Shown here: piece after piece, positions 2,094 through 44,836 of the stretch
Layout: every line of letters begins with the position of its first letter
Position numbering within the stretch: position 1 is the first letter of the stretch
DNA from: Parabacteroides sp. PF5-9
Lineage (GTDB): Bacteria > Bacteroidota > Bacteroidia > Bacteroidales > Tannerellaceae
NCBI RefSeq assembly: GCF_029893105.1
Contig: NZ_JARXWG010000002.1
Location: 124,001 to 188,000 of the forward strand
DNA length: 64,000 bases
Direction: 5' to 3'
Made by a program: the position numbers and the translations under genes
The notes under the pieces: generated by a model
Databases searched by the model: none
What the model was told of the DNA's origin: nothing
Seen by the model: the letters and a program-made list of their open reading frames with translations, nothing else

Positions 2094-4067
2094 ATGAAAC
2101 AATTCTTCTATTGTATTGCATTAACCCTATGCAGTCTCTCTTTGACAGCACAAAAGAGAGTCGATCTTCAATCTCCGGACAAAAAGGTACAATTCAGTCT
2201 TACTCTGGATAAAAAAGCACCGACATATACGGTCAGTTTCAAAAAGACACCATTGATCGATCAATCTCCTCTGGGGTTTGAATTTGAAGATGGGATATGG
2301 AGTACTGATCTGATCATGCATAAGCCGGTGTATACAACCGGGGATGAAACGTATGAATTGATTGTCGGAAAAACGAAAACGGTTCGGAGTCATTATAAAG
2401 AAGTCACTATCCCTCTGGAGGAAAGCGTTGAAAAAAAGCGGAAGATCAATCTGGTGGTAAGAGCATTTGATGATGGCCTTGCATTCAGATACGAATTCCC
2501 CCAACAAGCCGGTTGGTCTTCTTACATCATGTATCATGAAAACACCCAGTTCAATCCATCCGGTAATCCGGAGATGACAGTCTTACACCTCCCCTCCTAC
2601 CTGACATCCCATGAAGGTTTGTATACCCAAACAACTTATCAAAAACTGAAAGAGAAAGAGTTGATGGATATGCCCGCCCTTTTTCAGTTTCCGAATAATA
2701 TCTATATGGCGATCACCGAAGCGGCTCTCCGCGACTATGCCGGCATGTATTTAATGAAAGAAGGAAATAGTCTTAAAGGGAAATTATCCCCTTCGCTTAC
2801 CGATGAAAAGGTAAAAGTCGTCGCCGATTTACCCCATCAGACCCCATGGAGAGTCTTTATGATCAGCGACAGGATCGGCGCATTGATCGAATCCAATATC
2901 CTGACCAACCTGAATGAACCGTGTCAGATAGAAGATACCTCCTGGATAAAACCTGGAAAAACCACCTTTACATGGTGGAACGGGAATGTCGTGCCGGATA
3001 CGACATTTATGGCAGGCAATAATTTCGAAACCAATAAATATTATATTGATTTTGCAGCCCGGAACGGATTGGAGTATCATTCGATTTACGGATATGCCGA
3101 ACAACCCTGGTATACAGACGATGGTTTCGATTTTGGATCTCCAGGCCAACATGTTGATATCACTCAGCCAATAGCTCCGCTTGATATGAAATACATCTGT
3201 GACTATGCAAAAAATAAAGGAGTAGGCATACACGTCTGGCTGAACTGGAAGGCACTGTACCCCAAGATAGATGAAGCATTTATTTTATTCGAAGAATGGG
3301 GCATCTCTGGTATGATGGTCGATTTTATGGATCGCGACGATCAGCAAATGATCCGTATACAGGAAGAGATTGTTGCTAAAGCAGCCAAACATCATCTATT
3401 TATTCAGTTTCACGGCTCCAGTAAACCCTCCGGATTACACCGAACCTATCCGAATGAGTTCACCCGTGAGGGGACATTGAATTATGAGGTCTATAAGTGG
3501 GACGACAGAATTAATGCCGATCATGATATCTCTATGCCTTTCACCCGTTTACTTGCCGGTCCGGCAGATTATCATCTGGGAGGATTCAGAGCGGTTACGC
3601 GTTCGCAATACAAACCCCGGTTTTCAAACCCTTTAGTGACCAGTACCCGGTGTCATATGTTAGCGATGTATGTGGTTCTGGAAAGTTATTTAGGAATGGT
3701 ATGCGATACGCCACAAGCCTATGAAGGACAGCCCGGATTTGAATTTATCAAACAACTGCCGACTGTGTGGGATGAAACAGTAGTTCCGGATGCATCCGTG
3801 AATGAATTTGTTGTAGTTGCACGGCGAAAAGGCGATGAATGGTTTGTTGGTGCACTGAATAACAGCAAGGCCAGAGATTTATCTATTCCATTAAACTTCC
3901 TTGGAAAGGGAGAATACCATGCGGAGATCTATACAGATGCAAGCGACGCCCATGTGAATCCGAATCACTTGAATAAACAATTCCGAACATTCAGGAAAGG
4001 AGATCTGATTGAAATCCCATTAGCTATAGACGGAGGAGCGGTTGTACGCCTTGTTAAATCAGAATGA
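2094..4067 (+). CDS. glycoside hydrolase family 97, probable alpha-galactosidase-type
   Basis: This is a secreted or periplasmic 657-residue protein with signal peptide MKQFFYCIALTLCSLSLTAQ. It has the GH97 layout: an N-terminal beta-sandwich, a (beta/alpha)8 barrel from about residue 290, and a C-terminal beta domain. The motif MMVDFMDRDDQ (Asp410 in VDF) fits the retaining branch of GH97, typified by alpha-galactosidase BtGH97b, in which this region supplies the nucleophile. Inverting SusB-type enzymes differ here. The frame is open back to 1992, but ATG 2094 begins the signal peptide. TAACTTTG at 2048-2055 matches the Bacteroidota -7 element, although no well-spaced -33 TTG is seen. Substrate is inferred from the motif only. 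Confidence 0.88.
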   Translation: MKQFFYCIALTLCSLSLTAQKRVDLQSPDKKVQFSLTLDKKAPTYTVSFKKTPLIDQSPLGFEFEDGIWSTDLIMHKPVYTTGDETYELIVGKTKTVRSHYKEVTIPLEESVEKKRKINLVVRAFDDGLAFRYEFPQQAGWSSYIMYHENTQFNPSGNPEMTVLHLPSYLTSHEGLYTQTTYQKLKEKELMDMPALFQFPNNIYMAITEAALRDYAGMYLMKEGNSLKGKLSPSLTDEKVKVVADLPHQTPWRVFMISDRIGALIESNILTNLNEPCQIEDTSWIKPGKTTFTWWNGNVVPDTTFMAGNNFETNKYYIDFAARNGLEYHSIYGYAEQPWYTDDGFDFGSPGQHVDITQPIAPLDMKYICDYAKNKGVGIHVWLNWKALYPKIDEAFILFEEWGISGMMVDFMDRDDQQMIRIQEEIVAKAAKHHLFIQFHGSSKPSGLHRTYPNEFTREGTLNYEVYKWDDRINADHDISMPFTRLLAGPADYHLGGFRAVTRSQYKPRFSNPLVTSTRCHMLAMYVVLESYLGMVCDTPQAYEGQPGFEFIKQLPTVWDETVVPDASVNEFVVVARRKGDEWFVGALNNSKARDLSIPLNFLGKGEYHAEIYTDASDAHVNPNHLNKQFRTFRKGDLIEIPLAIDGGAVVRLVKSE

Positions 4068-4214
4068 CGGGAAGAAATTTCTGTTACAACGGGAAGAAAT
4101 TTCTGTTACACCTACCTCTGTTTTCTGTTAGAGGTACCTCTAAATCGATTTAGAGGTAGGTGTAAATTAGTTTAGAGGTACCTCTAAATGATTTTAGACG
4201 TACCTCTAACAGAA
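4061..4214. repeat. tandem 22-bp palindromic repeat array (array A)
   Basis: Two sub-blocks share an exact 22-bp period. The first has two copies with core AGAAATTTCT, centred at 4077/4078 and 4099/4100. The second has five units centred at 4113, 4135, 4157, 4179 and 4201. Units 2 and 4 have the perfect core GAGGTACCTC, and unit 5 has GACGTACCTC. Units 1 (CACCTACCTC) and 3 (GAGGTAGGTG) are not self-palindromic but are reverse complements of each other. The array starts at the GH97 stop codon and ends about 300 bp before the riboswitch promoter. Two more arrays with the same period lie at 11291 and 44749. Confidence 0.85.
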
Positions 4215-4513: not shown

Positions 4514-4521
4514 TACTTTTG
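4514..4521 (+). promoter_or_regulatory. promoter -7 element of the riboswitch-nrdDG transcript
   Basis: TACTTTTG matches TAnnTTTG and would start transcription near 4528, exactly at the 5' end of the riboswitch fold. No TTG is found at the ideal 19-21 bp spacing upstream, so only the -7 part is claimed. Confidence 0.45.
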
Positions 4522-4528
4522 CTGGCGT

Positions 4529-4712
4529 ATAAGGTTCCTATTTTTGGATAAAAGGGAACCGGGTGAGAATCCCGGACTATCCCCGTAGCTGTAAGTTTCT
4601 AAAAAAGGGAGAACAGATTGCCACTGGTCAGTATGAGGCGACAATAAAAGAATCGTTATTCATAAGCCGGGAAGGCGTTCTACCCGAAACAAGTCAGAAG
4701 ACCTGCCTTATG
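4529..4712 (+). promoter_or_regulatory. cobalamin (B12) riboswitch upstream of nrdDG
   Basis: The conserved blocks appear in the right order: a GGTTCC...GGGAACC stem, GGGTGAGAATCCCGG, CCCCGTAGCTGTAA, GCCACTG at 4619, GGGAAGGCG at 4669, and the B12-box segment AAGTCAGAAGACCTGCC ending near 4708. About 135 nt separate it from the nrdD start. The region after the box (4715-4760) is GC-rich and could hold the expression platform. By family knowledge, adenosylcobalamin binding lowers expression of the downstream gene. A frame open through this RNA in phase with nrdD is not coding. Confidence 0.93.
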
Positions 4713-4847
4713 CAAACAAAATCCGGGCTTTCGGGCGAAAAGCGACAGGATGAGTATTTGCAAACAGGTACTCCTCTCCGACTATCAACTATCCCCCGTT
4801 TAGTTTCCGACCATTTAAGCATATTATCAGCTAAACAGATTAATAAA

Positions 4848-11290: not shown

Positions 11291-11378
11291 TCGTTTGACA
11301 ACTGTCAAATGATCGTTTCACAATTGTGTAATAATCGTTTGATAATTATAGAATGATCGTTTGACAATTGTCAAACGA
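11291..11378. repeat. tandem 22-bp palindromic repeat array (array B), four units
   Basis: Four contiguous 22-bp units start at 11291, 11313, 11335 and 11357, each beginning TCGTTT. Their central cores are GACAACTGTC, CACAATTGTG, GATAATTATA and GACAATTGTC. Unit 4 is a perfect 22-bp palindrome, and the others keep arm pairing despite changed bases. The array lies in the 367-bp gap between the divergent rarD and aldA genes. I see no other clear signal in that gap. Confidence 0.92.
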
Positions 11379-44748: not shown

Positions 44749-44836
44749 TCGTTTGATAATTATAGAACGATCGTTCTATAATTATCAAACGATCATTCCA
44801 CAATTGTGAAACGATCATTCGACAGTTGTCAAACGA
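44749..44836. repeat. tandem 22-bp palindromic repeat array (array C), four units
   Basis: Units start at 44749, 44771, 44793 and 44815, each 22 bp. Each ends AACGA and begins TCGTT or TCATT. Read on the minus strand the cores are GACAACTGTC, CACAATTGTG, GATAATTATA and CTATAATTATC. The first three are the same, in the same order, as units 1-3 of the array at 11291. The array lies between a terminator (44859-44897) and the cysQ promoter, so it is probably not part of either transcript. Confidence 0.92.

Follow-up and report, generated by a model that had tools for sequence, protein, structure and literature searches.

Dispersed arrays of four 22-bp palindromes in a Parabacteroides genome as probable sites of HU-HIG nucleoid proteins

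The window, a stretch of 64,000 nucleotides, corresponds to positions 124001-188000 of contig C2 in a genome of 3.69 Mb and 46 contigs (G000, in the following the own genome). An array of four imperfect palindromes of 22 bp, which abut without spacers and have the consensus TCGTTTGACAATTGTCAAACGA, is located at positions 11291-11378 between two divergently oriented genes. Arrays of this sequence are termed class 1. The window contains a second class-1 array and one array of a different sequence (class 2), which is preceded by a periodic wing (Table 1). A cobalamin riboswitch (Rfam, 99.7 bits) was found at 4515-4724, with the class-2 array on one side and the next large ORF on the other. The first-pass annotation of this DNA had given the coordinates, the unit length of 22 bp, the absence of spacers and the four cores, and all of these could be confirmed on the sequence. 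It had also excluded a CRISPR, and rightly so, as the units abut directly and do not enclose unique spacers.

Table 1. Arrays and neighbouring genes within the window.
Feature	Position	Strand	Remarks
Unit 1 of class-1 array	11291..11312		TCGTTTGACAACTGTCAAATGA
Unit 2 of class-1 array	11313..11334		TCGTTTCACAATTGTGTAATAA
Unit 3 of class-1 array	11335..11356		TCGTTTGATAATTATAGAATGA
Unit 4 of class-1 array	11357..11378		TCGTTTGACAATTGTCAAACGA; perfect 22-bp palindrome; 0 mismatches to consensus
Second class-1 array	44749..44836		four units
Class-2 array (L034)	4125..4212		four 22-bp units of the TTTAGAGGTACCTCTAAA kind
Left wing of class-2 array	4067..4124		22-bp periodic
Left neighbour ORF, 302 aa	10270..11178	-	RarD-like by eye (no profile); start codon 112 bp from array
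Right neighbour ORF, 478 aa	11546..12982	+	aldehyde-dehydrogenase-like by eye (no profile); start codon 167 bp from array

For a quantitative description, four consecutive 22-bp dyads were given a score T, which is the sum of the dyad pairs and half the identity of adjacent units. The array at 11291-11378 reached T = 61; the maximum in mononucleotide-shuffled stretches of up to 3 kb was 39. At T>=44 three Markov shuffles of the window yielded no match, compared with the three real arrays. The ends of the array are well defined: the 22-mers on either side agree with the consensus of the unit at 10 of 22 positions, and for the 42 class-1 arrays described below the outside 22-mers scored 1-11 and the units inside (41 complete arrays) at least 12. 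The unit length was analyzed over larger regions. In 300 kb of contig C1 ten four-unit dyad arrays with a unit length of 22 were detected and none with any other length from 16 to 30. The corresponding analysis of 400 kb of Parabacteroides sp. PF5-6 (G008) revealed 21 arrays at 22 bp, 10 at 21, 3 at 20, 3 at 30 and 1 at 18 bp. The first-pass annotation would have been refuted by a period unique to this locus, which is not the case, since 22-bp dyad arrays recur in C1 and G008.

Well over a hundred four-palindrome sites are dispersed in the own genome, and the array at 11291-11378 is one of these. A search with the class-1 unit at <=3 mismatches gave 113 forward matches and none for the reversed pattern. 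These matches led to 42 arrays, and all 41 that are not cut by a contig start consist of four units. Outer units and inner units each have variants of their own and are thus not interchangeable. Class 2 is more abundant: its unit gave 359 forward matches (1 in the control), and the number of distinct arrays is at least 86; 15 of the 16 arrays read contain four units and one (L042) contains five. Class 3 was predicted from a gene on contig C39 coding for an HU-HIG protein and was then found, with 41 forward unit matches and none for the reversed control; of the 20 loci read, 18 have four units and two have three. The three classes have the 4x22 architecture in common and are unrelated in sequence. 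An unbiased scan of 1,125,527 bp of the own genome revealed 48 arrays: 23 of class 2, 16 of class 1, 6 of class 3 and three out of register. As the latter coincide with class-2 places, all 48 fall into the three classes. No overlap with an ORF of at least 70 aa was found for 38 of the 42 class-1 arrays using a crude caller, and 45 of the 48 scanned arrays show no overlap of more than 30% with an ORF of at least 80 aa.

The flanks contain additional periodic signals. In 54 class-2 flanks read outward from the array, A-tracts begin at +1 (100%), +23 (57%), +45 (30%) and +67 (26%); outward from class 3 they are located near +16, +38 and +60, and class 1 shows only a weak A-tract near +15. Phased A-tracts two helical turns apart mean curved DNA. 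At contig ends of the own genome an insertion sequence (IS) end (..CCAATTTTAGGATAAGTCA) abuts nine class-1 arrays (L057, L008, L055, L030, L219, L066, L218, L065 and L071). Its distance from the array is 17-18 bp in six cases and 28 bp in one; in the remaining two, L065 and L218, it reaches 3 and 5 bp into the outer unit and replaces these base pairs. Insertion 17 bp before the array and 5 bp inside it corresponds to an equal phase of the 22-bp period. At L224 a different sequence ends 17 bp from the array.

The first-pass annotation had assumed that dyad symmetry is under selection rather than the sequence itself, and had suggested a check for compensatory changes. We compared 29 arrays from many genera and counted only arm positions outside the search pattern. 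Pairing was observed in 69.5% of the arm cells, compared with 47.7% after shuffling and 31-48% with slid partners. The whole 88 bp form an even better dyad (76.2% versus 48.2%, 29 diverse arrays). Scores of this kind are inflated by related sequences. The symmetry is kept as the sequence changes, and the arms covary within units and more strongly across the 88 bp.

Every unit is able to pair with itself and some class-1 arrays are located directly after stop codons, which would fit a transcribed chain of hairpins that acts as terminator, attenuator or RNA-stability element. This second proposal of the first-pass annotation found no support in the analysis. The 48 scanned arrays show no orientation preference: 20 lie in tandem, 19 in divergent and 9 in convergent gaps, close to the distribution of all gaps of at least 130 bp (157, 92 and 38). 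The Rfam search of the window returned the riboswitch and a tRNA only. The outer tracts of class 2 are T before and A after the array, which is the opposite of terminators, and two classes with wholly different sequences share an identical 22-bp phase. We therefore regard a hairpin chain as very improbable.

Arrays of the same type are present in other genomes. The class-1 sequence model has matches in 14 of 39 relatives. The loci read in relatives mostly show the 4x22 architecture with other unit sequences; L085 and L086 do not show it. A generic four-unit pattern matched at least 113 stretches in named genomes, and among the matches listed 106 belong by title to Bacteroidota and six to other phyla. 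Among the runs with diverged units and good dyads, 71 in total, 53 consist of four units, 12 of five, 4 of six and 2 of seven, so that four units are the rule but not a law. By dyad score, 51 arrays were detected in 800 kb of G008 and none in shuffles. These arrays fall into at least six sequence classes, and some two-unit versions are present. One G008 class with a CTACCGGTAG core is found on C1, C2 and C3 (e.g. C1:263929) with 15 arrays in 800 kb and long conserved left flanks; no HU-HIG partner was found for this class. In Parabacteroides sp. An277 a 22-bp array with the different core GTTTCCTCCCGGGGAAAC (L121:1892) adjoins a homologue of the gene that flanks the own class-1 array L064. A generic structure model (R3) was run on 149 genomes and matched the own genome alone at E<=1e-6. 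Only 29 candidates were scored per genome, and this result therefore says nothing about absence.

A comparison of the genes next to the arrays, from which eight loci (L085, L096 and six of other phyla) and stretches with long N runs were left out, identified one gene that recurs in four genomes. It starts 37-70 bp from the array and its products share 29-38% identity. The protein belongs to the HU-HIG family of HU/IHF-like, DNA-bending proteins (PF18291; NCBIfam HU_rel). Three of the proteins gave E-values of 4.9e-30, 9.2e-37 and 6.2e-17, and with 104.6, 126.3 and 62.2 bits they clearly met the curated cut-off of 26.2. The HU part (query residues 29-120) matches solved HU and IHF chains. By eye a C-terminal winged helix is usual in these proteins; the only Pfam match for it was weak (PF22168, 19.7 bits, below the cut-off of 27). 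A structure prediction from a single sequence was poor (pLDDT 39). HU/IHF-like proteins are dimeric. The founding paper of the HU-HIG family is reportedly that of Burroughs and co-workers in Cell Cycle in 2017. A profile search revealed two full-length members in the own genome and many more in G008, G010 and G002.

The association was then counted from the side of the genes. An array of T>=43 within 320 bp upstream was present in 22 of 28 full-length HU-HIG rows, and none was present downstream. Without the four discovery genes the numbers are 18 of 24 upstream versus 0 of 24 downstream. By score six of the 24 genes lack an array; one of them has only N upstream, and in three of the misses palindromes are visible by eye. 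In this count genes with identical first 60 bases were merged (L323 with L083, L338 with L326 and L344 with L340; L344 had an array), and two rows from L340, whose upstream reads N, were kept. When 15 new genomes of the bacterial family were examined, 21 of 26 HU-HIG genes had an upstream array. For five genomes belonging to other families within the order the number was 6 of 16, all six from two genomes; a downstream array was found in neither set. This second count left out L372 (discovery), L377 (<200 bp upstream) and L385 and L396 (no full-length row). In the AT-rich upstream stretch of L379, T reached 46 in 200 shuffles. The best unit length was 22 in 28 of the 29 arrays scored upstream of HU-HIG genes. 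Genes coding for HU only have an upstream array in three of 12 cases and a downstream array in none; nine of 12 have no upstream array. At L143, an HU-only gene, the array is located downstream instead, and further HU-only cases exist outside the 12-gene count. Because the dyads are kept despite sequence change and arrays of the same architecture lie upstream of HU-HIG genes, the multi-site platform for a dimeric protein proposed in the first-pass annotation gains support, with binding itself inferred.

The array classes can also be matched to individual genes. Of the five HU-HIG matches in the own genome, three are preceded by an array, which is of class 1 at C30, class 3 at C39 and class 2 at the HU-only gene on C34. 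For the own dispersed arrays on C1 and C39 the best match was an HU-HIG array of the same genome in 11 of 11 cases. Of 56 dispersed arrays in G008, 27 matched an HU-HIG array of the same genome best, four that of another genome and 25 had no clear match; most of these 25 belong to the CTACCGGTAG class without known gene. For the array at 11291-11378 the C30 array (L322) ranked first of 49, although narrowly (0.742 versus 0.705), and for the second class-1 array of the window (44749-44836) L322 and L083 tied. The cognate protein of the array at 11291-11378 would be the HU-HIG protein encoded at G000:C30:42630-43220. The similarities of arrays and proteins are weakly correlated (Spearman 0.16-0.24), and a correlation is expected from common descent.

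The spacing of the sites was taken from the unbiased scan of 1.13 Mb and not from array lists. The minimum gap between the 48 arrays is 5725 bp, compared with a mean of 1207 for random intergenic positions, and gaps below 8 kb occur three times instead of the 12.4 expected (0 of 2000 simulations in both cases). The gaps are also more even than expected (CV 0.66 versus 0.90, P 0.003). Pairs of different class keep apart as well, with the same minimum of 5725 bp. In G008 the 31 HU-assigned arrays replicate this finding: their smallest gap measures 7263 bp (1724 expected, P 0.001), and one gap is shorter than 8 kb (7.2 expected, P 0.001). Arrays of the CTACCGGTAG class of G008 do not avoid the HU-assigned arrays, and for all 51 arrays together the effect is weak (P 0.035).

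The position of arrays was compared between the two genomes using 22 orthologue-like G008 genes (800 kb) of genes that adjoin arrays in the own genome. The G008 gene had an array at the same end in six of the 22 cases and at the opposite end in one. The background is 64 of 596 5' ends (10.7%) and 38 of 596 3' ends (6.4%). Five G008 arrays underlie the six cases, and some of these arrays belong to a different class; the data are only suggestive of a position kept over time. A count from array-centred loci (59 of 133 at the same end, 14 of 100 at the opposite end) was set aside as redundant and ascertained.

An array upstream of a regulator's own gene is what ordinary operators would look like, with the HU-HIG proteins as local transcription regulators and the arrays near target promoters of their regulon. 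The position of the array at 11291-11378 between divergent starts also fits, and none of the 14 class-2 arrays with both neighbours is convergent. Over the whole scan convergent sites are not depleted (9 of 48, versus 38 gaps next to 157 tandem and 92 divergent ones), and mutual spacing between classes would not be expected from a regulon. We consider a plain regulon unlikely, but it cannot be dismissed as easily as the hairpins.

Some arrays show signs of dispersal. In two G008 classes near-identical arrays with short inverted ends are found in unrelated outer flanks, which means that sites move or are copied. The own arrays L046 and L047 are alike at all but a few positions and have 14 bp in common on one flank, and TTAA-like tetramers flank class 3 on both sides. 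The arrays could hence be a non-autonomous mobile element of the MITE or REP type with short inverted ends, copied by an unknown transposase, and the HU-HIG genes would have captured copies; the BrickBuilt repeats of Porphyromonas gingivalis, with 23-nt units, are described as a MITE (PMC4596501). Such an origin does not account for one exact architecture common to three unrelated sequences, nor for the pairing of every private class with an HU-HIG gene. Arrays of different classes also avoid each other, an effect not expected from target immunity that is specific to a family, and the six of 22 genes with an array at the same end in G008 speak, suggestively, in the same direction. Plasmids and exact-pattern viral scans contained no match for the class-1 and class-2 queries, and phages none for class 1, the only class queried there. 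A Y1 transposase (PF01797) is absent from the own genome and from the array-bearing genomes G010, G015 and G019. A mobile element as the whole explanation appears improbable to us, more so than a regulon; dispersal of copies and a role as protein site can hold together. A RAYT transposase as motor was rejected for the own genome (0 matches to PF01797). Y1 transposase genes in G008 and G018 (L239:2119, L241:1203) carry a 22-bp dyad array near the 5' end, and five viral contigs match the generic four-unit pattern.

Taken together, we think that the array is probably a specific binding site of a chromosomal HU-HIG nucleoid protein; binding is inferred and no binding data are available. Each 22-bp dyad, two helical turns in length, would take one HU-HIG dimer, and four dimers would stack on one face of an 88-bp site which is itself symmetric. 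Such a stack of four would account for the 22-bp phase and the dyads, for the constant number of units and for the private sequences in front of HU-HIG genes. On both sides of class-2 and class-3 arrays, the A-tracts with their 22-bp phase suggest that the DNA may bend or wrap around the complex. Every HU-HIG paralogue would have its own site sequence, with one copy upstream of its own gene, probably for autoregulation, and the others dispersed over the chromosome. Sites would multiply by an unknown copying route and be retained where spacing allows. The spacing across classes favours an architectural role, in nucleoid or domain formation, over a plain regulon or a selfish repeat, although chromosome organisation likewise remains an inference from sequence.

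The findings point to a mechanism, not described so far, by which the chromosome would be organised or regulated in a sequence-specific manner. HU-type proteins are generally regarded as binding DNA without much preference for particular sequences, and to our knowledge sequence-specific dispersed sites are not known for the HU-HIG family. No description of such sites was found in literature titles and the beginnings of abstracts, a search that did not cover most subscription journals. It is, as far as we know, an open question what determines the boundaries of topological domains in bacteria. It is conceivable, though we would not yet favour it, that the paralogous HU-HIG proteins jointly lay a chromosome-wide lattice of sites about 16-20 kb apart which bounds the topological domains of Bacteroidales, and that each new paralogue arises with a new site sequence, which displaces earlier ones or is added to them. 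If HU-like proteins have private, mutually spaced sites of fixed architecture, a major gut order would have a directly testable layer of chromosome organisation that can be read from sequence, the abundant 22-23-bp repeats of the Bacteroidales group would be explained, and many natural protein-site pairs would be available for working out recognition.

The candidate partner is a clear member of HU-HIG (PF18291) within the HU/IHF superfamily, and the proposed system can be compared with several known ones. MatP/matS, Noc/NBS, SlmA/SBS and ParB/parS are dispersed-site chromosome organisers with single short sites and one protein. The proposal resembles them in that a DNA-binding protein is dedicated to many specific sites on the chromosome, and differs in the fixed four-dyad site of 88 bp and in several paralogue-site pairs per genome. 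REP/BIME elements with their RAYT transposases are palindromic, intergenic and multi-copy. The arrays share these properties and have IS inserted beside them; in contrast to REP/BIME their architecture is fixed at 4x22, and the own genome lacks PF01797. BrickBuilt consists likewise of intergenic tandem repeats, of nearly equal period, in a Bacteroidales genome (PMC4596501). According to Table 1 of that paper, BrickBuilt_14 (84 nt) lies between PGN_0871 (-) and PGN_0872 (+), the latter listed as 'DNA-binding protein (PF00216)'; a link of BrickBuilt to HU proteins was not found in the parts of the paper that were available. About 90 bp to the right of the own array L020 (C1 near 247.9 kb) the sequence AACGTGAGTTCGATATAAG resembles the end of the P. 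gingivalis MITE239 in Table 2 of the same paper. BrickBuilt differs from the arrays in a repeat number of 1 to 22.8, in a leader and tail and in IS5-like ends, whereas the unit of the arrays is 22 bp instead of 23 nt and the number of units in class 1 is fixed at four.
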